Origin: Okeania sp. SIO2B3
GTDB lineage: Bacteria; Cyanobacteriota; Cyanobacteriia; Cyanobacteriales; Microcoleaceae
NCBI RefSeq assembly: GCF_010672525.1
Contig: NZ_JAAHGH010000063.1
Location: 1-42,825, forward strand
Direction: 5' to 3'
DNA length: 42,825 nucleotides
Shown: piece by piece, positions 19,912 through 32,593 of the stretch
How the letters are laid out: each line of letters opens with the position of its first letter
How positions within the stretch are numbered: position 1 is the first letter of the stretch
Notes under the pieces: generated by a model
What the model saw: only the letters and a program-made list of their open reading frames with translations
Told to the model about the DNA's origin: nothing
The model's database searches: none
Program-made: the position numbers and the translations under genes

Positions 19912-20997
19912 ATGAAATCCATCAGAACCAAACTCAAATTAAATAATAAGCAAAAAACTTTAATGGCTCAACACGCTGGCTATTCGAGGTGGTGTTATAA
20001 CTGGGGTTTAAGTTTATGGAATGTTGCTGCTCGAGATGGTTTAAGGCCAAACTCCCGTAAGCTAAGAGAGGTTTTTACTAATCATACCAAACCACTTTAT
20101 CCTTGGATGAAAAAACTTTCATCTAGAGTTTACCAATATGCTTTTATTAACTTAGGTGAAGCATTTAAGAGGTTCTTCCAAGGATTGGGTAAACGCCCAC
20201 GGTTTAAGAAGAAAGGTAAATCTGATTCGTTCACAATAGATAATTGTGGAAAACCCATAGAATTAAATGGATGGAATCATAAAATACCTTTTATTGGTTG
20301 GGTTAAGACTTATGAGCCAATTGAAGCAACTACTCAAAAAATAACCATTAGTAGACAAGCGGGGGATTGGTACTTAAGTTTGAGCTATGAATTTAGTACA
20401 ACTCCCACACCAAAAACTATTGATGTTGTAGGTGTTGATTTAGGTGTGAAAACGCTAGCAACACTAAGTACTGGTCAAGTTTTCCCAAGCATTAAACCTT
20501 ACCGTACAGCTCAAGATCAACTAGCAAAATTGCAACGGCAACTGAGCAGGAAAGTAAAACATTCAAATAATTGGCACAAAGCTGTAATCAAGCTAGCGAT
20601 CGCAGCACAGACGAGTAGCTAACATCCGCAAAGATGCACTTGATAAATTGACAACATACGCAAGCCTTGAACCACGGCACTGTTGTCGTTGAAGATTTGA
20701 ACGTTAGCGTATGGGTAGCCAACCACAAGCTAGCTAAATCAATTAGCAGATAGTGATTTTATGAGTTTCGTAGACAGCTAGAATATAAAACTCAGTGGTA
20801 CGGTTGTGAGCTGGTAGTAGTTGACAGATTTTTCCCATCTTCTAAGACTTGCAGTAGGTGCGGTCATGTTCAAGATATGCCATTGCATCTGAGAACTTAT
20901 GATTGCAAGAAGTGTGGGATATCTATAGACCGGGATCTGAATGCCAGTATAAATTTGAGAAATGCGGTCGGCTTGACCGTGAATGCCTGTGGATGAG
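19912..20997 (+). pseudogene. tnpB: TnpB (IS200/IS605-IS1341 type), several frameshifts
   Basis: 236 residues are intact from ATG 19912: MKSIRTKLKLNNKQ, YSRWCYNWGLSLW (N-terminal HTH), and RuvC-I GVDLGVKTLATLS with its catalytic Asp near 180. After about 20610 the frame breaks more than once, but pieces remain: VANIRKDALDKL, a VVEDLNV RuvC-II equivalent, the zinc finger CSRCGH...CKKCG, and RuvC-III DRDLNASINLRNAVGLTVNACG up to the TGA. TnpB is the RNA-guided nuclease of these transposons. No TnpA is present, as in IS1341-like elements. Degenerate codons cluster in the 20605-20790 part. Confidence 0.85.
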
Positions 20998-21431: not shown

Positions 21432-21665
21432 TCAAATCATCCCGTAATAACGAATGACTCTACCAAAATAGTCTTTGAGAATACCATCTCCAGAAATACC
21501 TATATCTGTTTTCACAGCTTTGATAACTCGGAAAGCTAATGTTAAATATCCCACTTTAGAGTTAATAATTCTCCGGTAGTATATAGTACCCTTGTCAGTT
21601 ATTTTTTTAGTTCTTTCTTCTTCTGTTGCGTTAGCAAGTATGAGCGTATAATTCTCTTCGCACAT
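21432..21665 (-). CDS. Hypothetical protein, possibly 5'-frameshifted
   Basis: 77 residues (MCEENYTLILANATEEERTK to FGRVIRYYGMI). The minus-strand frame stays open upstream of the Met (AIRNQEIDYLVVVAPDF), and another frame offers MFGVFEPLEIK just before it. One lost base would join them into a protein of about 98 residues, so the gene may be broken. It lies 154 bp behind the last gene of the Ubl operon in the same direction and could be its final member. No family recognised; the C-terminal D.FGR.IR..G pattern recurs, to my recollection, in cyanobacterial conflict-system proteins, but I would not assign it. Confidence 0.4.
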   Translation of the reverse strand: MCEENYTLILANATEEERTKKITDKGTIYYRRIINSKVGYLTLAFRVIKAVKTDIGISGDGILKDYFGRVIRYYGMI

Positions 21666-21819: not shown

Positions 21820-22386
21820 TCACTCTACCCAATTAATGTTTCCTAGCTCTTCTACTGCTTGAACTTCTTCCCATTGAACTTGTGATAGTGGATCTAGTTT
21901 GGCCTCAATACCTACCAACATTTCTGGTTTTAACCAGGAAGTACCAGTAGTCATAAACTCTTCTGTATTTGTAACATCTATATTTAAAACACGACATTTA
22001 TTAACTATTTCCGATTCCGAAGATAAGGGTAAGAATATTGTCGGACATTCTAGGATTTCGGCTATATTTATTAAACCAAGTACATAGCGGTCTATGGGAT
22101 TTCTAACATCCAAGTCGCCAATTGGTTTAATGTTAATTTCTTCGTTATGGAAATATATGGTTCCTTCAGAAATTGTCTTAAATATTAGTAGATTTGGTAT
22201 TTCTTGCCTTTCTAAAGAGTTGAGAATTTTTTCAGCAGCTTGTGTCGCCTGGGTAAAATCTCTTTCTGTTAGATAGATTAGCTGATTGTAAAAATACTTA
22301 GGTAAAATTACGTCTTTACTACTCCATACAAGGAGATCAGGGTTGCTAATACATAAATCTGGTTCTATGCCGTACAATGCTTTCAT
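21820..22386 (-). CDS. PIN-like protein of unknown role, end of Ubl operon
   Basis: 188 residues. It begins MKALYGIEPDLCISNPDLLV and has the sequence rhythm of a PIN domain: a first strand, then VILPKYFYNQLIYL, a helix DFTQATQAAEKILNSLE, later NPIDRYVLGLINIAEILECP, then TIFLPLSSESEIVNKCRVLN and IDVTNTEEF. The last part matches the 'vLvTnD..l..KA..lgI.V' end of PIN proteins, but the TND is PLSSES and no clear acidic tetrad remains. If it is a PIN fold, it is probably inactive. A Trp/Glu-rich tail (VQWEEVQAVEELGNINWVE) could bind a partner. It sits 79 bp behind the second RING-like gene, same strand. Confidence 0.65.
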   Translation of the reverse strand: MKALYGIEPDLCISNPDLLVWSSKDVILPKYFYNQLIYLTERDFTQATQAAEKILNSLERQEIPNLLIFKTISEGTIYFHNEEINIKPIGDLDVRNPIDRYVLGLINIAEILECPTIFLPLSSESEIVNKCRVLNIDVTNTEEFMTTGTSWLKPEMLVGIEAKLDPLSQVQWEEVQAVEELGNINWVE

Positions 22387-22465
22387 GTTTTCTACCTCTT
22401 TGTGCGCAATTTAGTAAATTTAACAGAGACTCTAATTTGTTAAAATATATTTCTCTTGTAGATTT

Positions 22466-23005
22466 TTATTGCTCTATCCGATTTCTGATAATGTTATTCC
22501 ACTGAAGAGCGAACGGCAAAGTATGTTGTCTAGTATGGGCATCACTCCCACAATCTCTACATTTACAATCCATTTCTCTCCAGCTATCTTCATGGTACGC
22601 TAGTCGGCAGCGACGACAAAAATAAACGGTTTCTCCTGGACTGAAAACTTCCTGACTATAAGGATCATTAGATCCTATTACAGTTGTTAATATGTTATTT
22701 AGATCGTCAGGAACATTTTGATTGAAAAAGTTTTCATCTGTAACAGTTTCAGGTTCATTAACATTACTATTACTAGAAGTGTTAACATCAACTTCCACCC
22801 ATCCAATTTGATTTGTTTGTTCAGGATGATTGACATCTGTCCATTGAATTCCGCTTGCCTCCCTTTGGTAAGAGTGCCTATTTGAATATGAAGTTGATGT
22901 TTGGGAGTTTCTGTTTGGTGGTGATGGAGGAAGTCTAGACCTACGGTAAAAAAATGCCCCGATAGAAGCAATTACTCCTAACCCTATTAAAATTAACCAT
23001 TCCAT
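22466..23005 (-). CDS. Membrane-anchored RING-like protein 2 (candidate E3)
   Basis: 179 residues. An N-terminal hydrophobic anchor (residues 2-20, ending in RRSR) is followed by a polar Ser/Asn-rich linker (25-95), a helix (DDLNNILTTVIG) and a treble-clef/RING-like domain at about 114-155: DPYSQEVFSPGETVYF, ligands C130, C133, H138 (LAYHEDSWREM), C147, C149, C152. The order F..G..V..C..C...H..SW....C.C..C follows the prokaryotic RING pattern (F..G..V..C..C..HH..CW......C...C), but the first knuckle (CxxC) is replaced by DPYS. It shares about half its domain residues with the neighbouring 23061-23474 protein. Placement between JAB and PIN-like genes of the Ubl operon suggests E3 or substrate-adaptor function; this is inference. 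Confidence 0.75.
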   Translation of the reverse strand: MEWLILIGLGVIASIGAFFYRRSRLPPSPPNRNSQTSTSYSNRHSYQREASGIQWTDVNHPEQTNQIGWVEVDVNTSSNSNVNEPETVTDENFFNQNVPDDLNNILTTVIGSNDPYSQEVFSPGETVYFCRRCRLAYHEDSWREMDCKCRDCGSDAHTRQHTLPFALQWNNIIRNRIEQ

Positions 23006-23060
23006 ATTAAGTCTTGCTTGATTTTCAGCTATCTACATACTTGTTATAATCTATATTTCA

Positions 23061-23474
23061 TCATTTCAGGTCATCCCATTGAATTAAATCATTTGTCTTG
23101 TTTCTTGTTATTTGTATTGGAGTTGGCAATATGTAATCTCGAGTGTTTCTATTATGTCCGCACACCATACATCTACACCCCATTTCCTGCCAACTATCTT
23201 CGTGGTATGCGAGTCGGTGGGTGTGACAGAGATAGACTTTTTGTCCTGACCTAAATGTTTCTTGAGTTACAGGATCTTTAATTTCTCCTTGACTCAGAGA
23301 TTGAAGGATGTTATCTAGATCGTCAGGTACTATCTCAGGGTTCTTGGAAACAGTCTGGGAGGAAGAGGAAGGTTTAGAAGCTCTACCAATAAACAGAAAT
23401 AAAACAGCTAATACCCAAAACCCCCAATTTGCAAATCCGAGAAGAAAAAAAATAAAAGATAAAAAACATCCCAT
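23061..23474 (-). CDS. Membrane-anchored RING-like protein 1 (candidate E3)
   Basis: 137 residues. Residues 3-30 are strongly hydrophobic (one long or two short helices: FLSFIFFLLGF and WVLAVLFLFIG). A Ser-rich linker and helix DDLDNILQSLS follow. The RING-like domain spans 67-107: DPVTQETFRSGQKVY, then C83, H86, H91 in LAYHEDSWQEM, C100, C102, C105. The ligand set thus varies from its paralogue only by H86 for C133. A C-terminal segment ending IQWDDLK follows. Starts 26 bp after the JAB stop with an agagga Shine-Dalgarno-like sequence. The absence of the first CxxC knuckle means at most one complete zinc site plus part of a second. Confidence 0.75.
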   Translation of the reverse strand: MGCFLSFIFFLLGFANWGFWVLAVLFLFIGRASKPSSSSQTVSKNPEIVPDDLDNILQSLSQGEIKDPVTQETFRSGQKVYLCHTHRLAYHEDSWQEMGCRCMVCGHNRNTRDYILPTPIQITRNKTNDLIQWDDLK

Positions 23475-23500
23475 GATAGAAATTCAATCCTCTAATGTTT

Positions 23501-24904
23501 TTATTTAAGTATTTTCCTAACTTTTATTCTATTTTCATTACCTTCACTATCCTCGTAGATAAGACGACGTGGAATATTAACTACGTTGCGTACTACTCTT
23601 TGAGAAGAAGCATTTTTAGATGAATAACTAGAGGAAATACGAACTAATACTGCTTTGCCATTACTTAGATATCCCAAATTTTCTGTTATTGGTTCGAGTG
23701 TTTTAGAAATCATCCTATCTGGAATCTTGTCTGGAATTTTAACAGAATCAATTAGTTGAATTTCCTTATCCTTGAGAATGATTCTATCAATCTCTAAGGT
23801 AACATTTTTAGCTATAGAGTTACCCTCTTGCCCAATAACTAACAAAATTATTTCGTCCCCACCACCAATACCAGTTTGTGGCTCTATAATTGGAGAATGT
23901 AAAACATTCTGATTAGCTTCTAACGTTCTGTAGGCGACAATAGGTATTTTTATATACTTAGCATTAAACTCATAATTATCTTTAGTAAAAGTGTTAGAAT
24001 TGCTCAAGTTTCCAACTGCTTCTGGTTGACTAACTGAGGAGTCAGAACCATTTTGATTAGATTGACTGATAGGATTATTCAATGGAATTTGTAACAATAA
24101 TTTTAAAATAATTCCTACCATCAAAATTAGTAGAGTTACCAAGACTAAAGGTGTAAAATTATTGCGATTTCTTCCACTTCCGATCGTTTGATTTTTCGGC
24201 TCAATCTCCTGATTTGTTTCATCCTTACTGGTTTCCTCTTCTTGTGAATACTTAATCCTTGAATCTAGAGCTTTATCTGCTGGATCGGAGAGAATTTTGT
24301 GTGTATGTCCACCGCCAAATTCAACTACATTAACGTGTTCTGCTTTTGCACCCAGGAAGTAAGCAATTTCACGGCGTACAGGATCGCAAACAATTGAGAC
24401 ACACCAAGGGTGGTGAAAAAATGCTCTTTGTGTATTCATATCTGTACCTGACATGAAAACTCCAAGATTTGGATGAGAGTGATACCAACCTACGATGTTC
24501 TCTTGGGGGTGGGTAGTTTTAGCATAATCCATAATTCCTTGCCAAGAAGCAGATGTGAACTCTAGATGTGCCCCTGTTCCAATAGTTGATGGAGCTGCCA
24601 CTGCCGATCTAATTTCTACATATATCCCATACTGGGGGTCTTCATAAGCATTACCAAAAAGAATGCCACCTTGTTCTACTGTTGTGTTTGAACCCAAATG
24701 CGCTTTGAGATGTTTGAGAGCAATTTTTGTGATATATACTTTTTCTTTTTTAGTATTGCTAATATCTCGTTCAGATTTAAAATCTTCGATTGATTTTGGT
24801 ATGGGTTTGTAAACATCTTCACTCTCAACCCATACAATTTTGTTTTGTTCTGAATTTTGATTGAGTGATGAATTATCGCGATCAACAGGAGGTAAATCTG
24901 GCAT
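23501..24904 (-). CDS. JAMM/JAB peptidase with membrane anchor (deubiquitinase-like)
   Basis: 467 residues. The JAB/MPN domain (about 55-200) has the complete JAMM site: E77 in EQGGILFG, H142 and H144 in the HSHP motif, S152 and D155 in MSGTD. It should therefore be an active zinc isopeptidase. A charged linker is followed by one transmembrane helix at about 251-271 (LVLVTLLILMVGIILKLLL) and about 195 further residues without catalytic motifs, rich in beta strands and presumably outside the cytoplasm. In Bil/CBASS-type systems the JAB protein removes the Ubl from targets or trims it. Here the Ubl already ends in Gly, so deconjugation is the likelier task. Good Shine-Dalgarno (ttgagga) before ATG 24904. 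130 bp separate it from the E2 gene. Confidence 0.9.
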   Translation of the reverse strand: MPDLPPVDRDNSSLNQNSEQNKIVWVESEDVYKPIPKSIEDFKSERDISNTKKEKVYITKIALKHLKAHLGSNTTVEQGGILFGNAYEDPQYGIYVEIRSAVAAPSTIGTGAHLEFTSASWQGIMDYAKTTHPQENIVGWYHSHPNLGVFMSGTDMNTQRAFFHHPWCVSIVCDPVRREIAYFLGAKAEHVNVVEFGGGHTHKILSDPADKALDSRIKYSQEEETSKDETNQEIEPKNQTIGSGRNRNNFTPLVLVTLLILMVGIILKLLLQIPLNNPISQSNQNGSDSSVSQPEAVGNLSNSNTFTKDNYEFNAKYIKIPIVAYRTLEANQNVLHSPIIEPQTGIGGGDEIILLVIGQEGNSIAKNVTLEIDRIILKDKEIQLIDSVKIPDKIPDRMISKTLEPITENLGYLSNGKAVLVRISSSYSSKNASSQRVVRNVVNIPRRLIYEDSEGNENRIKVRKILK

Positions 24905-25034
24905 GGCTATTTCCTCAATAGATTTGGTGTATAAACGAAATGCTGAGTTGATGGGAAATCCTTACTTTCCTATTAGTGATAGCTATCAAGTATAGGATTT
25001 CCTGAGTCAAATCAGCTATAGACGGAGTTAGTTA

Positions 25035-25529
25035 TTACTTAATGTCACCCCAGATAATCTGAGACTTAAAGGTTTGAGAGTCAACAGGAAAGAGTGACAT
25101 ATTTTTTGCCGCCCAACTTTCTGCCTTAGAATTAGCTGGACTGTTTAAATTAAGTACATCTTTTGAATACTGAATGATCTTGCCAATTCTGATAACCAGT
25201 TGAGGTACTGTTTCTGCCATTGTCCAGTAACTACCCAAACAAACATCTTTGTTTGAGTAAACATTAGGGTGGAAAATAGGAGTCAAAAATTTAACACTAG
25301 GTTGTTCTCTTGGATATTGATTGCTAAGGGAAATTTCAACGCGATGGTTACTGCGGAACACAGGTTTTTTTTCCTTTAATTTTTCTATGCCTCGACAACG
25401 ATAGTCAATCACATATTGATAGGGGGGATTTCCAGTAGCTGAAGTAATTATTATAGAACCGCCAGCATTACCAACAAGCTCTAATAATGCTTGATGCTCA
25501 TTTCGCAATCGTTTTTCTCTTACACTCAT
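25035..25529 (-). CDS. E2-like ubiquitin-conjugating enzyme
   Basis: 164 residues, the length of a bare UBC fold. Eukaryote-like landmarks are in order: a first helix with RLRNEHQALLEL, YPREQPSVKFLTPIFHPNV with the HPN motif at 87-89, catalytic Cys97 in KDVCLGSYW, and LNLNSPANSKAESWA, equivalent to the LL..PN...PLN..A segment of eukaryotic E2s. All residues expected for thioester transfer are present. The ATG lies 2 bp behind the Ubl stop, and its ggagg ribosome-binding sequence is part of the Ubl's last codons, so the two are translationally coupled. Acts between the E1 (25812-26972) and the candidate RING-like E3s. Confidence 0.92.
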   Translation of the reverse strand: MSVREKRLRNEHQALLELVGNAGGSIIITSATGNPPYQYVIDYRCRGIEKLKEKKPVFRSNHRVEISLSNQYPREQPSVKFLTPIFHPNVYSNKDVCLGSYWTMAETVPQLVIRIGKIIQYSKDVLNLNSPANSKAESWAAKNMSLFPVDSQTFKSQIIWGDIK

Positions 25530-25531
25530 TT

Positions 25532-25786
25532 TTAACCTGCCTCCAGAATAGGATAAACTTCTACTACATCATCTGGCTCTATTCCCACTGAGCTTAAAGT
25601 TGCAGAACTATCTAATTGTTCACCTGTACGTTCCAAGCGTGCTGCATAATCAGCATTTGAAGGTAAATTCCACCTTTGTTGTGCGCTTTGCAAAACCTGT
25701 CCCACTGTTAGAGTAGGGGGCAAGCTAATAGCTGCTTTTCGAGTACCGTCGGCCATACGGACAACGAGAGATACAGAATCACTCAT
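25532..25786 (-). CDS. Ubiquitin-like modifier (beta-grasp)
   Basis: 84 residues with one beta-grasp domain of the YukD/ubiquitin type: strand VSLVVRMADGTRKAAISL, helix TVGQVLQSAQQRWNL, a middle region YAARLERTGEQL, and the last strand DDVVEVYPILEAG. The chain ends in Ala-Gly with no residues after the Gly, so it seems ready for adenylation by E1 without processing. A single domain distinguishes it from the two-domain ISG15-like modifiers of Bil operons. A strong taggaggaaat Shine-Dalgarno precedes ATG 25786, consistent with high expression. It follows the E1 gene by 25 bp. Confidence 0.9.
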   Translation of the reverse strand: MSDSVSLVVRMADGTRKAAISLPPTLTVGQVLQSAQQRWNLPSNADYAARLERTGEQLDSSATLSSVGIEPDDVVEVYPILEAG

Positions 25787-25811
25787 ATTATTTCCTCCTA
25801 TGTTTAGTTGT

Positions 25812-26972
25812 TTAGCAAAATTGAATGGCTATTTTACCTTTGCTAGTATCACACTGTAGAATTTCGTTCTGTGTTAAACACAAATCTGCTAATAAAGTTT
25901 GGGCAGATTTGTCCTGAAGAGTAAAATTTCTAATCACTTCAAAATCCCTTTCCTCATTTTCACACTTGGGGCAAGGAAGTTTCGATTCTGGGTATTGTCG
26001 CAGAAGTTGATTCACCTGTTCCTCATATCCACAATCATTACATTTCATCTTGCCAATAATTTCATTGCGCAGCCACAAAACTGGTTCAGAAAACCCTGAT
26101 TTTTCTAGATGTTTCAGAATTTCTACAACTGGTTTATTTGCCTCGTACTTAATACTAATAGTTGGTTCTATCGGCAAATCGTGAGCTGGACAATATTCCT
26201 GACGCTGAATTTGAACTTTAAAGGATGTCCAAGGATTTAAACTCAGAAAAATTTTTTCACCAGGATTAAGCATTCCTGCTTTGCCATGTAAATACAACAG
26301 TGCTTGGTGAACTTCCATCGCTGCTACAATAGAAGCAATAGGAGCTGTTGTCGGCATTGCCCTATCTGGAATATTGCGTTTCACACCCTGACAGGAATAT
26401 CGCTGATTACGCCTTTCCCACATTTTGTCACTGATACTACAGTCATAGCAAGCTGCTTCGCTTTTCGGATCGAAAAAACTTACTTCTCCTTGAGCAACAC
26501 CTATACCACCATTAACCCAGGGAATCCCTGCATAGTAAGCTGCTTGATTAATTGCCCACCGTGCATTAACACTATCAAGGCAACCAATAATAATGTCATG
26601 TTCTCTAACATTCCCAATCCCCAGGTCAAATTCTAGGTCTCCCTGAATTGCCTCAATAGAAATATCTGGATTAATTTCCAGCAGTTGCTGACGAGCTGCT
26701 TCTACTTTTGGTAAGTCTACATCTGACTCTCGAAATAAGACTGAGCGAGTTAGGTTAGTAATTGACACTGTGTCAAAATCAATGACAGTGATTTTACCAA
26801 CCCCAACAAGTGCTAAATTTTTAAGAACTTCGTTACCTAAAGCACCACATCCTGCTACCAATACTCTGGCATCTCTGAGTTTTTCCTGATTCCACCAGTC
26901 AATTAAGTGGTGACGAGCGTAACGAGTTTCTGGCTCTTCGCTAATATCAAAAAAATCTATAGATTCAAGCAT
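25812..26972 (-). CDS. E1-like ThiF/UBA activating enzyme with C-terminal zinc ribbon
   Basis: 386 residues. The ThiF-type adenylation domain has the nucleotide loop AGCGALGNE (40-48), acidic VIDFDTVSITNLTRS (63-77), K89 in LPKVEAA and D133 in GCLDSVNAR. Cysteines C175 and C178 (CYDC) pair with a later cluster as in zinc-binding E1-like proteins. C194 (RYSCQGVKR), followed by a Met/Pro/Thr-rich crossover (RAMPTTAPIASI), is the likely catalytic Cys that carries the Ubl thioester. The C-terminal 80 residues carry a second zinc ribbon (CNDCGY and CPKCEN, around 305-340), which is unusual and may recruit the E2. First gene of the operon, with a gggagaaa Shine-Dalgarno before ATG 26972. Confidence 0.9.
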   Translation of the reverse strand: MLESIDFFDISEEPETRYARHHLIDWWNQEKLRDARVLVAGCGALGNEVLKNLALVGVGKITVIDFDTVSITNLTRSVLFRESDVDLPKVEAARQQLLEINPDISIEAIQGDLEFDLGIGNVREHDIIIGCLDSVNARWAINQAAYYAGIPWVNGGIGVAQGEVSFFDPKSEAACYDCSISDKMWERRNQRYSCQGVKRNIPDRAMPTTAPIASIVAAMEVHQALLYLHGKAGMLNPGEKIFLSLNPWTSFKVQIQRQEYCPAHDLPIEPTISIKYEANKPVVEILKHLEKSGFSEPVLWLRNEIIGKMKCNDCGYEEQVNQLLRQYPESKLPCPKCENEERDFEVIRNFTLQDKSAQTLLADLCLTQNEILQCDTSKGKIAIQFC

Positions 26973-27519
26973 TTAGCATTTTCTCCCTACCCTATAATAT
27001 GATTGCTACAACCTAGAGTTTTTCTTAAAATAAAAGGTACTGATTAAGCGAACAGGGTGACAGTTGTCTCTCCAATCAACTTTCTGCACTTTCAACTTTC
27101 ACAAAAAAGCCGAGTTTCCCCTGTGTAGATAACTTTTTGTGCATAATTGCTAAAAACACAGTTTTCCCAGATCCACTTGGCCTAAGTATAATAACTGAGT
27201 AACTATTCATAAGTTCCGAATTAGTCTATTTGTTAACGTCCTAATGTAGCTTTTCTCATAAGTATGAGGTACATCTACTGATCCCCGACTATCCCTCTCA
27301 AAAAGCTATGCTTTTTGTTGGCTTCCTTTTTAAGGGGGCGGGGGGAATCTAAAACTCTACCTCGTAGATTAAAGAACTGCTATAATCCATCTTTCCTCAT
27401 AAATTCTGGCTTTGTCAGTAGGAATTGTTGGAAATTTTTCCTTAATTTGTTTGTAGGATTTGTAGGAAATGTACGATTTGTTTGCTATAATTCCTCAAAA
27501 CCCTAACATTTCCGAATAT
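26973..27519. other. Divergent control region between Ubl operon and NB-ARC gene
   Basis: It must hold the promoters of both divergent units; I cannot place them with confidence. It contains a relic of a P-loop GTPase gene (27076-27210) and a near-repeat ttgtaggatttgtaggaaat just upstream of the NB-ARC start. Confidence 0.5.
27076..27210 (-). pseudogene. N-terminal relic of a P-loop (double-GTPase-like) protein
   Basis: A 44-codon minus-strand frame with ATG at 27210 reads MNSYSVIILRPSGSGKTVFL, then AIMHKKLSTQGKLGFFVKVE, and a stop. The start MxxYSVIVLGPSGSGKTVFLASMYKKLS is what I recall for cyanobacterial DO-GTPase2-type proteins of conflict systems. The Walker A is intact apart from Gly to Arg just before PSGSGKT. 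The rest of the gene is gone. It lies 104 bp upstream of the E1 gene in the same direction, so it may once have been the first gene of the operon. Confidence 0.5.
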
Positions 27520-28870
27520 ATGGATATTCAAGAAGTTTTGAGGTTAGCTGAAGAGCTAATTTATGACCATACTGGAGAAAATTTAGACTATCTGCAAAAA
27601 ACTATATTGCAACGTACTTTAGAAAATCAGACTTACAAAAAAATTGCTGAGGAAACTTACGCTAGCGAAACTCATGTTAGGTATATCGGTGCTAAATTAT
27701 GGAAAATTTTATCGGAAATACTGGGTGAAAATATTACTAAAGCAAATTTTAGAACAATATTAGAAAATGCAAATATTTACAATTTTGCACCTGTTTTTTG
27801 TAGAGATAACGTAACAAGTAATATTAATATCTGTCCGTCAAACCCTCGCGCTTCCCCAACAACAACCAACCCTCCACAAACACCAACTCAAAATATTATC
27901 GACCTAGACAAAGCACCAGAAATTATCAACTTTTATGGTCGGATAGACGAACTTTCTACCTTATCAAAATGGATAATGAGCGATCGCCTTCGTGTAATCT
28001 CACTTTTAGGAATAAGTGGTATTGGCAAAACGACTCTTTCTCTACAATTAATCAAGCAAATCAAAACTAATTTTAATTACATCATTTATCGCACCCTCCG
28101 CTTTTCTCCCACCCTCACCACAACTCTCACTAACCTCCTGGAAATTTTCGCACCAGAAACAGAAACTTCAGACAATATCGAAACTCTTATATCGCAACTA
28201 CAAAAATACCTAGAAAAATATCGTTGCTGCATCATATTTGATGACGTACAAAAATTATTTGCTCCAGGAAAACTTGCAGGTCAATACAAATCTGGTTATG
28301 AAGATTATCGAGATTTTTTTCAACTACTTGTCACAGTCTCCCATCAGAGTTGTTTGCTATTAATAAGTAGAGAAAAAATTCCAGAAATTACCAAATTAGA
28401 AACAGAAAATTATCCAGTACGAACCTTAATTTTAGGAAGTTTAGGAGCTGCTGCAAATGAAATATGCCAAAAACGCCAATTAGTAGATCGAGAATCTTGG
28501 GAAAAATTGATCAATAATTATCAAGGAAATCCCCGATGGTTAGATATAGTAGCAACAACAATTCAAGAATTATTTGGCGGTCAAGTAGCAGAATTTCTGG
28601 AATATCAAACCCTAATTTTACCAGAAGCATTACAAGCAGAATTAGAACAACAATTGCAGCATTTATCTCCTGTGGAAATCAGAATTATGGAGCAAATTGC
28701 CAATCAAAGCCAACCTATTTCAATAGGAGAAATAATTAGAAAGTCAGAACTATCTATTCAGGAATCTGTAAACGTAATTCAATCCCTGAAAAAACGGTTA
28801 TTATTAGATGGGCAGTCAGAGAATAATTTGACCGTATTTACTCTTAATCTTGTTTGGAAGCAATATTTAA

Positions 28871-28896
<26 letters not shown>
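27520..28896 (+). CDS. NB-ARC (STAND) ATPase with N-terminal HTH, C-terminus replaced by MITE
   Basis: 458 residues from ATG 27520 (MDIQEVLRLAEELIYDHTGE), the usual family start; an ATG at 27469 would add 17 atypical residues. Residues 1-85 are the helical HTH-like module found at the front of cyanobacterial STAND proteins (YKKIAEETYASETHVRYIGA). The NB-ARC domain follows: FYGRIDEL (138-145), Walker A LGISGIGKTT (163-172), Walker B CIIFDD (237-242), an arginine-sensor region LLISREK, and a winged-helix part to about 450. Relatives usually continue here into WD40 or other sensor repeats. In this gene the frame enters a MITE at 28871, which encodes the last residues SSLVEQL and the stop. It is therefore probably a truncated sensor, oriented away from the Ubl operon. 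Confidence 0.8.
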
Positions 28897-29563: not shown

Positions 29564-32500
29564 TTAACCACCTGAAAAATAGCAATGATAAAGCTGATAT
29601 TTATACCCATCTATTAATGGAAATTCACCTTTGTCAACCAGGCATTTTTCTACTGCTATATTAAAATCACTCGCAAAATTTACTAACCATAAATCAAAAG
29701 GATATTCCAGTCTATTGATAATTTTGTGAAGTGAATTTACAGTATTTTCTCTATCGGTTTTTTGCTCTACTAAAATAAATTTGATAGGCTCTAAATGTTT
29801 TTCCTGACAAATACTCTCTTTTCTACATTTTTGCTGAAATTTTTTTCTCATATTCCAAGCTATTCCCATGAATTCTCCAGTTTCAACATGGGTATAATAA
29901 GTCGTAGCAATAACTATTGGTTTGTCAGATTTTTTTTCTATGAGAGAAACAAATAAATCTGGTCGATAATATTTTTGATAGCCTAAATTTGAAACAACAG
30001 TTAAGCCACTTAATAAAGCCATTAACCAAATTAAAATTACGGCTTTTTTGCCCGTAGTTGTGCAAATATAAACATTCAAAAATTTACTTTTAACAAACTG
30101 CTGATTAAAAATTTGTGCGAGTATTGCTGCTACTAAAATAATTACTGCTGGAAAATAAATAAAGCTGTAACGCGCACCTCTAGTTAGGTCAATACCGAAA
30201 ATATAAGTAAAACTAAAAAATAATAATGTACTAGCTAATATGACTCCGGCAAAAGTAATGAAAGAAATACTAATATCGGAATTTTTTAAACAATTAATAG
30301 TGCCACTAATAAATAGAGGAAATAGCCAGATTAAAAATAAAATCATCACCACAACAGAAATAATTGCTATGGGAAAAATCGGAGATTCTATCGGCAATAA
30401 AAATAACATAGTAATCCCTGTAGCCAGGAATTGAAAAATCGGACTGAGCAAACTTTTTAAGTTATCATCGCTAATCGAAATCCATTTTGTTAATTCACTG
30501 CTATAACCATTTTTCCAAAAAGGCAGCCAAACTAAACCACCAGCTAAAGTTCCCAAAATTACTATGTAGAAATTAGCAAGTGATTTGATGAGAGTATGGA
30601 GAGAAAATTTACTTGATTTTTTTACTTTTAAGCTAGAAAAGTTATCTTTTTCTTTTGAGTTTAATACCCCACCGTATACAGGGTTTTGAAAATTGGTAGA
30701 AGTTTGAGTCCCCATCAACTTTTTCCTTCTTTCTTCTTCCTTTTTCTCTCTTCCTTCTTTGGTAAAAGTTTGAGTCTCCATTAATTTTTTTCTTCTTACT
30801 TCTCCCCTATTTTCTCTTTCTGATTCAACTTTTTCTTTTGAATTTAATACCCCGCCATCTATAGGGTATTTAAAATTGGTAGAAGTTTGAGTATCCATCA
30901 AATTTTTCCTTTTTTCTTCTTCCTGATTCCCTCTTCCTTCTTCTGAGTTTAATACCCCGCCGTCTACACTATTCCCTCTTCCTTCTTCTGGGTTTAATAC
31001 CCCGCAGTTTACAGGGTTTTGAAAATTGCTAGAAGTTTGAGTATCCATTAAATTTTTCCTTATTCCTTCTTCCTTATTCCCTCTTCCTTCTTTGCTAGAA
31101 TTTTGAGTATCCATCAAATTTTTCCTTCTTTCTTTTTCCTGACTCCCTCTTCCTTCTTTGCTAGAAGTTTGAGTATCCATCAAATTTTTCCTTCTTTCTT
31201 TTTCCTGACTCCCTCTTCCTTCTTTGGTAAAAGTTTGATTTCCCATCAATTTCTTCCTTTCTCCTTCTTCCTTATTCCCTCTTCCTTCTTTGCTAGAAGT
31301 TTGAGTATCCATTAAATTTTTCCTTCTTTCTTTTTCCTTATTCCCTTTTCCTTCTTTGGTAAAAGTTTGATTTCCCATCAATTTCTTCCTTTCTCCTTCT
31401 TCCTGATTCCCTCTTCCTTCTTTGCTAGAAGTTTGAGTATCCATTAAATTTTTCCTTCTTTCTTTTTCCTTATTCCCTCTTCCTTCTTTGGTAAAAGTTT
31501 GAGTATCCATCAAATTTTTCCTTCTTTCTTTTTCCTTATTCCCTCTTCCTTCTTTGGTAAAAGTTTGAGTATCCATCAAATTTTTCCTTCTTTCTTCTTC
31601 CTGATTCCCTCTTCCTTCTTTGGTAAAAGTTTGATTCCCCATCAATTTCTTCCTTTCTCCTTCTTCCTGATTCCTTCTTCCTTCTTTGGTAAAAGTTTGA
31701 TTCCCCATCAATTTCTTCCTTTCTCCTTCTTCCTGATTCCCTCTTCCTTCTTTGCTAGAATTTTGAGTATCCATCAATTTCTTCCTTTTTCCTTCTTGCT
31801 TCTTGCTTCTTCCTTCTTCAAAAAAAAATAGAGAAATTAATACCATTGCTTCAGCGCAGAGAGTCAAAATAAAAAAATAGTGGGTGGCAATACCTAAACT
31901 ATTAACTACAACCCAAATAAATGCTGTGAAAATTGGCAAAGATTGACCTTCCTGAAAATGGCGAATACTAATAATTAAACAACAAAAAGAAGCAATAACA
32001 AATAAAATAGCTAAAGTATAATGACGAGCCTCTTGAGCAAGATAAATACCATAAGGAGAAACAGCCATTATTGCAGCAGCAAATTGTCCTACTAACCGAG
32101 AATGAAAAGCCAACCTAGCCAAACCATAAATAGCAGGAATAGAAACAACACCAAAAATAACACTCAAAGACCGCGCACCCCATAGAGAAACGAACTCCCC
32201 TTCAGCAGAAAAAAACTGCATCCACCAATGAGTCAAGATAAAATAGACAGGTGGGTGGTTACTATAAGTTAATAAATTATCAACTACATTATTAATATCA
32301 GTATTGACATTAAACTGTAGGGGTTGGAGTAACATCTCCGGAGCGATCGCTCGATCTAGCGGTACATCCTGGAAACTATTACCCAAACTAAAAACCAAAG
32401 TAGAAAATTCATCCGTCCAAGGTGGTTTACCATCTAAATTAGTCAGACGTAAACAAGTAGCTATAGCTATCCAAACTAGCAAAAGTAACCATTGACTGTG

Positions 32501-32593
32501 TAAACTCCTGCGCCAAAAGTTGACTATTTTCTGAATATCTTGATTAAACTTTCTCACTCTTACTTTTAACCTAATAAATATGACCGCTTTCAA
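29564..32593 (-). CDS. GT-C membrane glycosyltransferase (PMT/ArnT-like) with 22-residue repeat insertion
   Basis: 1009 residues as read, with many transmembrane helices. The first loop carries the GT-C acidic motif [13 protein letters not shown] and later [14 protein letters not shown], as in dolichyl/polyprenyl-phosphate-sugar transferases of the GT39/GT83 type (Pfam PMT_2-like). Such enzymes transfer a lipid-linked sugar to an acceptor on the outer face of the membrane; donor and acceptor are unknown. Between the helix ending [13 protein letters not shown] (about residue 255) and the next one ([20 protein letters not shown]) lies a hydrophilic insertion of about 380 residues, built of 22-residue repeats. 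Without it the protein would be about 630 residues, the family norm. The start overlaps cofH by 14 bp on the other strand; an in-frame GTG at residue 12 (VRKFNQDIQ) may be the true start. Confidence 0.8.
30637..31774 (-). repeat. In-frame 66-bp coding repeat array
   Basis: About 15 units. The first 11 are exactly 22 residues ([20 protein letters not shown] plus KL or NL). Two main flavours alternate, MDTQ and MGNQ starts with FTKEG or SSKEG. The last four are variants containing [13 protein letters not shown]. The DNA is made of ggaagaagg and ggaagaggg motifs, like the intergenic tandem repeats of this window. All units keep the frame. Confidence 0.95.

Follow-up and report, generated by a model that had tools for sequence, protein, structure and literature searches.

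The operon and its core enzymes

We analysed a stretch of 42,825 nucleotides from Okeania sp. SIO2B3 (contig NZ_JAAHGH010000063.1, assembly GCF_010672525.1, forward-strand numbering), hereafter the window, which carries at 21820-26972 an operon of seven minus-strand open reading frames (ORFs) in the order E1, Ubl (ubiquitin-like protein), E2, JAB, RINGa, RINGb and PIN-like. A preliminary description of the window had given the coordinates and order of all seven, and these proved exact in our ORF check. The operon probably encodes a complete pathway, associated with the membrane, for the conjugation and deconjugation of the Ubl, and most of its products share a short tryptophan-acid motif (IxWx[DE]) which we take as a likely docking tag. 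The genes are as follows.

25812..26972, minus strand: E1, a single ThiF-type adenylating enzyme (Pfam ThiF 1.3e-56, above cut-off)
25532..25786, minus strand: Ubl, 84 amino acids (aa), one domain, ending in EAG (Gly84), without the IxWx[DE] motif
25035..25529, minus strand: E2, with HPN at 87-89 and Cys97 (Pfam UQ_con 7.5e-12, above cut-off)
23501..24904, minus strand: JAB, with a JAB deconjugase domain (Pfam JAB 4.2e-11, above cut-off)
23061..23474, minus strand: RINGa, a hydrophobic N-terminal helical hairpin and a RING-like domain of treble-clef type in which one metal site is degenerate
22466..23005, minus strand: RINGb, a hydrophobic N-terminal stretch, a linker with two motifs and a RING-like domain
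21820..22386, minus strand: PIN-like, 188 aa, conserved, with a predicted alpha/beta core and a disordered tail; orthologues stand at the same place

The catalytic residues that the preliminary description had pointed out are all kept in relatives of the E1, E2 and JAB. In the E1, for which it had named a nucleotide loop and C194, the residues C194, G41, G43 and G46 are invariant in 10/10 relatives. By eye, Cys194 lies at the crossover-loop position, and the protein has a C-terminal Cys-pair (zinc-ribbon-like) stretch and an end resembling a ubiquitin-fold domain (UFD). Among PDB sequences the E1 profile matches MoeB (2.2e-37), UBA7 (9.8e-37) and UBA5 (7.4e-22), and the E1 matches the E1-E2 model of PADLOC at 6.7e-20. 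The E2, with H87, P88, N89 and C97 invariant in 12/12 relatives, is HPN-type and closest to ubiquitin E2s in the PDB profile comparison. The JAB residues E77, H142, H144, S152 and D155 are invariant in 16/16 sequences, and the protein matches the PADLOC JAB model at 1.2e-8; beyond the domain we observe, by eye, a hydrophobic, transmembrane-like segment and then a C-terminal part, which is missing from the shorter JABs of Planktothrix and of locus L013.

The Ubl shows Pfam matches below cut-off to Rad60-SLD (8.5e-5) and ubiquitin (7.5e-4). A profile of 14 Ubls retrieves ubiquitin from the PDB set and aligns Gly84 opposite ubiquitin Gly76, in agreement with the earlier view of a Ubl ending in glycine. 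The Ubls of L019, L067 and L068 carry two residues beyond the glycine, so that trimming would be needed, plausibly by the JAB. Taken together, these sequence features make it very likely that the operon encodes a working conjugation pathway.

Related operons

The host is a marine cyanobacterium with a genome of 10.0 Mb in 249 contigs, whose closest named relatives are Okeania sp. SIO1I7 and SIO2C9, Trichodesmium and Planktothrix being more distant. A search with the single E2 protein found it in 10/59 genomes including the window's own, and the E2 profile in 13/386 genomes sampled across the phylum and 30/388 across the order, which is a patchy distribution; the PIN-like profile was found in 4/386 phylum genomes. 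Of the five genomes belonging to the window's genus, two are without the operon. In genome G003 the block at 21.3-28.9 kb is kept, the left flank is different and the M48-like neighbour lies on another contig. The plasmid search gave one carrier, Crinalium pCRI9333.03, and the E2 found no relative in the viral contigs and phage records searched.

We annotated 35 loci; the counts omit the duplicates L017 (= L082) and L075 (= L042). In a tree built from 29 E1 sequences, types A, B and C are separated at support 1.0, C' being placed with C; its members branch within C without forming a clade. Type A comprises 16 loci including the window, and 11 of them have the full series E1-Ubl-E2-JAB-RING(s)-PIN-like, so that the gene order in which the preliminary description had seen a test of its proposal is kept in relatives. 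Neither of the two outcomes that it had named as refuting, an order not shared by relatives or a loss of catalytic residues, was observed. Among the complete loci, L013 has a shortened JAB and L019 an extra ORF between E1 and Ubl. Of the five incomplete ones, L069 is truncated by its contig, L020 has no PIN-like gene, and L015, L071 and L074 are decayed; in L015, a Trichodesmium metagenome-assembled genome, E1 and Ubl are gone between the NB-ARC gene and E2, JAB is split and the PIN-like gene is cut short.

Accessory parts vary within and between the types. The RING-like domain of Planktothrix continues, by eye, into repeats resembling tetratricopeptide repeats (TPR-like), L019 joins a kinase-like domain (by eye) to its PIN-like protein, and the PIN-like gene of L067 is followed by a separate gene for a kinase (Pkinase 1.6e-39), which matches the PADLOC PD-T4-6 models (best 4.2e-130). 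In the four type B loci, the RING-like protein includes, by eye, a region resembling a coiled coil. The seven type C loci (L042, L076, L077, L078, L079, L038 and L023), one of which is on the Crinalium plasmid, add a VirD4/TraG-like ATPase (T4SS-DNA_transf 7.2e-19 in L077) and, in most loci, a conserved 'WYKF..SGD' partner protein without Pfam match, besides small RING-like proteins, several of the products having LxWRD tails. The Ubl gene occurs twice in L042 and L079, and the E2 gene twice in L079. In the three loci of type C', a nuclease-like gene (by eye, no significant Pfam match) takes the place of the partner. The type C operons possibly represent an undescribed conflict system.

A tryptophan-acid motif shared by most of the operon proteins

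Five of the seven operon proteins of the window, namely E2, JAB, RINGa, RINGb and PIN-like, carry together seven copies of the strict motif [ILVM]-x-W-x-[DE], situated in tails or linkers.

25044..25058, minus strand: IIWGD, C-terminal tail of E2, residues 158-162
24824..24838, minus strand: IVWVE, ahead of the JAB domain, residues 23-27
23070..23084, minus strand: IQWDD, C terminus of RINGa, residues 131-135
22793..22849, minus strand: tandem in the RINGb linker, IQWTD 53-57 and IGWVE 67-71, 14 residues apart
21823..21879, minus strand: tandem at the end of PIN-like, VQWEE 170-174 and INWVE 184-188, 14 residues apart

Shuffling within each protein gives a mean of 0.87 copies, and none of 5000 shuffles reaches seven. 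As a background, 88 ORFs beside such operons at nine loci (32,483 aa) hold 14 copies, and 31 of 290 ORFs of a wider background contain the pattern at least once. For all motif counts L036 and L041 were left out, and L047 is reported separately.

Across type A the motif occurs in 15/16 E2s, 14/14 JABs, 16/23 RING-like proteins, 11/12 PIN-like proteins and the one separate kinase, and the motifs of the PIN-like tails recur at a spacing of 13-16 residues. No Ubl carries it (0/33 overall, 0/15 in type A, 0/9 in type C). Among the type A E1 ORFs, 7/16 match the pattern close to a single N-terminal position in ThiF (I[DEQ]WWD, or ISWFD in a broken copy) and not in a tail, for which reason the E1 was not counted as a carrier; the E1 matches of type C lie mostly inside the core. 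The form found in type C is mostly LxWRD and occurs in 7/7 JABs, 5/5 labelled ATPases, 5/5 labelled partners and 3/8 RING-like proteins, and in 0/8 E2s, each ATPase having two to four copies in its C-terminal tail. For ATPases and partners the denominator is five and not seven since these two genes carried no label in L023 and L042; the count also includes some ATPase matches outside the tail (MTWQD near residue 1, VFWID in the core). In the deep-branching loci, 2/2 E2s bear the motif at the C terminus and 3/3 JABs contain it.

The motif was defined before loci L067-L082 were collected; the held-out set comprises 14 loci, which together supply 109 background ORFs. In the seven held-out type A loci, 19/25 operon proteins other than E1 and Ubl have the motif, compared with 10/109 background ORFs, and the densities are 4.92 and 0.39 per 1000 aa (Fisher 3.7e-11). 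For the four held-out type C loci the figure is 14/20 proteins, the motif-free E2 being left out (Fisher 2.3e-8), and some of the ATPase matches behind it lie outside the tails. For both types, 0/2000 shuffles reach the observed count.

A DNA search of the 10-Mb window genome for the paired form with 14-residue spacing gave two matches, both in the operon (PIN-like and RINGb). The share of matches inside the operon is 2/4 in G003, 2/3 in G004, 1/2 in G015 and 1/2 in G020; G058, whose operon has another spacing, gave none, and the operon-free genomes G001 and G002 gave two and one, respectively. The reversed pattern, searched as a control in eight whole genomes, gave no match in any of them.

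RING-like and PIN-like proteins

The N-terminal stretches of RINGa and RINGb were judged hydrophobic by eye, and the AlphaFold2 model of RINGa places helices there at 3-15 and 17-29. The RING-like domain follows the pattern K/NDP-x-[TS]-x-E ... C-x2-[CH]-x-LAYHEDSW ... C-x-C or similar. In RINGa its model shows 10-residue block means of 84-97 over residues 51-120, with a beta-hairpin and a helix as in treble clefs. RINGa has no relevant Pfam match and RINGb only zf-UBR at 0.011, below cut-off; neither window copy matches Prok-RING_1 at E<=1. That family is matched, weakly, by 5/19 type A sequences at E<=1 (best 7.9e-4) and by 3/14 type C RING-like sequences (best 9.8e-5), and hhalign connects the type A and type C domains with a probability of 70.7%. 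A PDB sequence search with the RING-like profile gave no useful match. Because the Pfam matches are weak, the model is confident and hhalign links the two types, we use the label RING-like with one metal site degenerate. The preliminary description had already called these proteins RING-like, a label which thus stays weakly supported: the treble-clef-like model and the matching relatives favour it, whereas the matches are weak and absent from the window copies. In L081 (4140-5750, minus strand), one ORF beside E1, E2 and JAB genes joins a RING-like domain (Prok-RING_1 0.049) to Pilin_GH (2.1e-24, type IV pilin-like).

For the PIN-like protein, AlphaFold2 gives a mean predicted local distance difference test (pLDDT) score of 62.7 and a predicted template modelling score of 0.61 from seven sequences, the five models ranging from 35 to 63. 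The tail that contains the motifs, residues 147-188, has a pLDDT below 50 and is predicted to be disordered. The sole PIN-compatible feature is the beta-alpha order of the predicted elements, and the identity proposed in the preliminary description went unconfirmed: Pfam gave three chance-level matches among 12 family members, none to PIN, hhalign gave a probability of 0.1% against three sequences, one of them a fragment, that had been judged by eye to be PIN proteins, and a PDB sequence search with the profile gave no useful match. In L047 (9001-10514, genome G115), a TPR-like gene stands with a PIN-like gene that has both tandem motifs, and no E1, E2 or JAB occurs in the 19.5 kb covered; two ThiF matches elsewhere in that genome are only 27-30% identical to the window E1.

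Neighbouring genes

Upstream of the operon and divergent from it lies a candidate regulator or sensor.

27469..28896, plus strand: NB-ARC/STAND ATPase (Pfam AAA_22 and NB-ARC)

By eye, its product has an N-terminal region resembling a helix-turn-helix (HTH). An HTH-like gene stands divergently upstream in 15/33 loci across types A, B and C, belonging to the NB-ARC family in eight and encoding a small protein in seven; it is not always adjacent, and in L015, L069, L077, L079 and L080 it is broken or partly similar. As the NB-ARC family has 15 matches in the window's genome, a specific partnership with the operon is only suggestive.

On the other side, a 77-aa ORF (21432-21665, minus strand) without Pfam match comes after the PIN-like gene and is kept in the two other Okeania loci. 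Close to this downstream side is a short TnpB-like ORF (by eye; 19912-20622, plus strand), and homologous fragments adjoin the operon of L014. Further away, an ORF resembling a membrane glycosyltransferase (by eye; 29564-32593, minus strand) includes a long array of 66-bp repeats at 30693-31818, with 12 copies within 31026-31818. Its homologue in L013 is shorter (856 aa, compared with 1009 aa in the window), suggesting that the array is variable.

Proposed mechanism and alternative explanations

We propose that the E1 adenylates Gly84 of the Ubl and then bears the Ubl on Cys194, from which it would be handed to Cys97 of the E2. The RING-like proteins, as E3s or platforms, may tether the charged E2 to the membrane, and the JAB would trim or remove the Ubl. 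The divergent HTH/NB-ARC protein might control expression or sense the trigger, and the downstream effector would be the PIN-like protein or, in relatives, the kinase or ATPase. Within this scheme the role of the RING-like proteins as E3s, the anchoring in the membrane (from hydrophobic stretches seen by eye) and the PIN identity are inferred. The IxWx[DE] motifs would be docking tags for one common partner, for which the Ubl is the leading candidate, so that tagged modules gather at sites of Ubl attachment and accessory modules can be swapped by bearing the tag. We regard the tag function as likely, and give the joint reading, a conjugation pathway together with a docking tag whose receptor is left open, a probability of roughly two in three. 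The preliminary description had anticipated the pathway, and its remark that the operon exceeds a four-gene core is borne out in comparison with the Bil-type core; its overall reading is supported in part, and the shared motif, the divergent HTH/NB-ARC gene and the related operons with swapped accessory genes were absent from it.

Several observations weigh against this joint reading. The motif was chosen post hoc, after the data had been seen, even if it was repeated in held-out loci. The loci are not independent, and the Fisher p-values ignore their relatedness and are therefore optimistic. Within type A the strict motif is missing from 1/16 E2s, 1/12 PIN-like proteins and 7/23 RING-like proteins. 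Type B has it in 0/4 E2s, 0/3 RING-like proteins and 2/4 JABs, and type C' in a single JAB (LQWRD, L080), its ATPase matches lying in the core or at residue 1; likewise, the held-out type B locus contains no motif, and the two held-out type C' loci show one JAB copy and non-tail ATPase matches. A looser pattern admitting W, F or Y was dropped, the E1 being enriched in it as strongly as the tails (27 copies, shuffle mean 8.35), so that only the W form is specific. One metal-ligand set of the RING-like domain is degenerate, with D-P-x-T replacing C-x2-C and Ser replacing a Cys, and some type C members fit zinc-ribbon families (best 9.4e-7) better than Prok-RING_1. "PIN-like" remains a label. Finally, both deep-branching Ubls lack the basic pair described below, even if their operons carry the motif.

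That the motif arises by chance, or as a by-product of acidic low-complexity tails, appears very improbable to us. The post hoc choice, the pattern's presence in about a tenth of the wider background ORFs and the enrichment of the W/F/Y form in the E1 would be expected under such an origin, but the shuffles never reach the observed counts, in the window or in the held-out types A and C, the spacing in the PIN-like tails recurs, and the window genome has the paired form nowhere but in the operon. If the motif is a tag, its receptor is most simply the E1 or the Ubl, because each type has both in its core and no tail copy is seen in either, and we lean towards the Ubl since the binding of Ubls by stretches of hydrophobic and acidic residues is well established. 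SUMO-interacting motifs (SIMs) bind SUMO, and SIMs, LC3-interacting regions (LIRs) and the shuffled ATG8-interacting or UFM1-interacting motifs (sAIM/UFIM) are all short hydrophobic-acidic Ubl-binding motifs. The nearest match is the sAIM of C53, whose consensus IDWG/D binds UFM1 and ATG8 according to sections of PMC10183829; IxWx[DE] resembles this consensus as a looser pattern. The Ubl alignment adds a weak hint in the same direction: an adjacent basic pair at the start of strand 2, shifted by one column between A and C, occurs in 14/15 type A, 7/9 type C, 0/4 type B and 1/4 type C' Ubls, and the sole C' Ubl with the pair is that of L080, whose JAB keeps LQWRD. Even so, we put the Ubl as receptor slightly short of an even chance. 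A receptor other than the Ubl, which could be the E1 through its zinc-ribbon-like or UFD-like end, a RING-like domain or some protein of the host encoded elsewhere, seems rather less probable. It would agree with the lack of a tail copy in the E1, with the exceptions to the charge correlation of the Ubl and with the docking of eukaryotic E1 and E2 via the UFD; nevertheless, SIM, LIR and sAIM/UFIM provide the best precedent, and the absence of the motif from the type C E2s, while ATPases and JABs have it, fits a Ubl reader better than E1-E2 docking.

The RING-like proteins could also be membrane scaffolds or adaptors instead of E3 ligases, with transfer directly from the E2, an alternative that we find quite plausible and still somewhat below even. 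The loss of one metal-ligand set, the weak Prok-RING_1 matches that leave out the window copies, the TPR-like extension in Planktothrix and the Pilin_GH domain of the type C' locus L081 are what a scaffold would lead one to expect. Their conserved place beside E1, E2 and JAB, the treble-clef-like model and the hhalign link between types A and C speak rather for E3s, as does the existence of bacterial RINGs without two pairs of Zn ligands, mentioned in passages of a review (PMC11354881). As for the role of the operon, we favour a conflict or stress system, given its patchiness, the plasmid location, the company of STAND, nuclease-like and ATPase genes and the PD-T4-6 match of the L067 kinase, and judge a defence or stress role to be moderately probable. 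A general stress or proteostasis pathway, as opposed to anti-phage defence, would be consistent with the lack of E2 relatives in phage records and viral contigs, and PMC13373217 reports phage protection as not shown for Bub-type operons. We consider this narrower view less likely than not, in light of the patchy distribution with operon-free genomes in the genus, the different left flank in G003, the STAND/HTH-like neighbours, the nuclease-like or ATPase partners and plasmid location in the sister types, and the kinase match, all of which are indirect signs.

To our knowledge, bacterial Ubl pathways are known mainly as covalent modifiers, and far less for how their parts meet and how the conjugates are read. 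We tentatively suggest a non-covalent Ubl reader code, in which the E2, the deconjugase, the membrane RINGs and the exchangeable effectors (PIN-like protein, kinase, VirD4-like ATPase and its partner) share a Ubl-binding motif, often in tandem, and the conjugated Ubl recruits the tagged modules. Such a code, if true, would be a bacterial counterpart of the SIM or sAIM/UFIM logic, extending from deep-branching members of the phylum to Okeania. A tag kept while effectors swap would also offer a mutable handle, one Trp per motif, on both assembly and reading, and would parallel the eukaryotic logic of SIM and UFM1 motifs in a lineage with an HPN-type E2 and RING-like proteins.

Comparison with known systems

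Bacterial E1-E2-RING-JAB-Ubl systems were reportedly predicted by Burroughs in 2011. The E1, E2, Ubl and JAB stand here with their catalytic residues in one operon, as in the predicted bacterial kind. Since operons with E1, E2, RING, JAB and Ubl had already been predicted, as stated in parts of PMC7159879, the kind of operon is not new, and the combination which the preliminary description did not recognise as described is in this respect known, the features of the variant being new. The predicted systems, found mostly in multicellular bacteria, have the same component set including a RING-type E3 candidate; what sets the present operons apart is that their RING-like proteins are small and start with hydrophobic stretches, that the accessory genes are PIN-like, kinase or ATPase genes, and that IxWx[DE] tags are shared. 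Ubl-conjugation genes in related systems appear in portions of PMC8195603, and cyanobacterial E1/E2/JAB operons of other types in portions of Iyer 2006 (PMC1779556). An operon type with a shared tail motif was not found described among the open-licence papers searched, and PHROGs, searched with five window proteins and one PIN-like relative, gave a best E of 0.0077, to a family of unknown function.

The ternary systems with FtsH or vWA-MoxR (PMC7159879) are marked by a Ubl-E2 fusion in an operon with EAD1 and MoxR/vWA genes, whereas Ubl and E2 are separate genes here. Membership in the vWA-MoxR systems was rejected, Ubl and E2 being separate ORFs and neither MoxR nor vWA occurring among the nine proteins scanned by Pfam. 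At L041 (genome G137), E1, E2/Ubl-like and JAB-like genes lie in a neighbourhood that looks MoxR/vWA-like by eye and resembles the published ternary systems. For the archaeal Caldiarchaeum operon, we know of no membrane anchors, tags, PIN-like gene or STAND neighbour. That operon (Ub-E1-E2-srfp-Rpn11) likewise combines ubiquitin, E1, E2, a small RING and a JAMM protease, and its E1/E2/RING cascade was functional when rebuilt in vitro, according to parts of PMC5654768.

Bub reportedly corresponds to row 6d of Iyer 2006. Bil and Bub are treated in sections of PMC11354881, PMC12687455 and PMC13373217. The anti-phage system Bil (BilABCD) shares the four-part pathway of E1, E2, Ubl and JAB; in the relevant passages of PMC11354881, BilA has two Ubl domains, BilD an inactive and an active adenylation domain and BilB a CEHH motif, whereas we find a single Ubl, a single ThiF domain and an HPN E2. 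Membership in Bil was rejected on the 84-aa single-domain Ubl, which matches the PADLOC BilA model at E=0.042 only, and on the E2, whose residues at the CEHH spacing are not E and H. Bub, or row 6d, has E1, E2, Ubl and JAB in one operon too, often with regulator genes upstream (parts of PMC13373217). In row 6d the E2 is without the classical conserved His and is accompanied by a helical partner protein (PMC1779556); membership was rejected, as H87 of the HPN E2 described here is invariant in 12/12 relatives.

In type II of the cyclic-oligonucleotide-based anti-phage signalling system (CBASS), Cap2 is an E1-E2 fusion acting on a CD-NTase. Cap2-Cap3 shares the E1/E2 chemistry and a JAB with our operon, consistent with the PADLOC matches of E1 and JAB given above. 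Membership was again rejected, the E1 and E2 being separate ORFs and no CD-NTase being present among the nine proteins scanned by Pfam. UFMylation (UBA5, UFM1, C53) shares a single-domain E1 with a crossover-loop Cys (by eye) and repeated tryptophan-acid motifs in disordered tails. Nevertheless, the E1 profile ranks MoeB, UBA7 and UBA1 above UBA5, the E2 is HPN-type and RING-like proteins are present, and the likeness is one of analogy only. In comparison with all these systems, what is new here is the association of a separate HPN E2 and a single Ubl with small RING-like proteins with hydrophobic N termini, swappable accessories and a shared putative tag.

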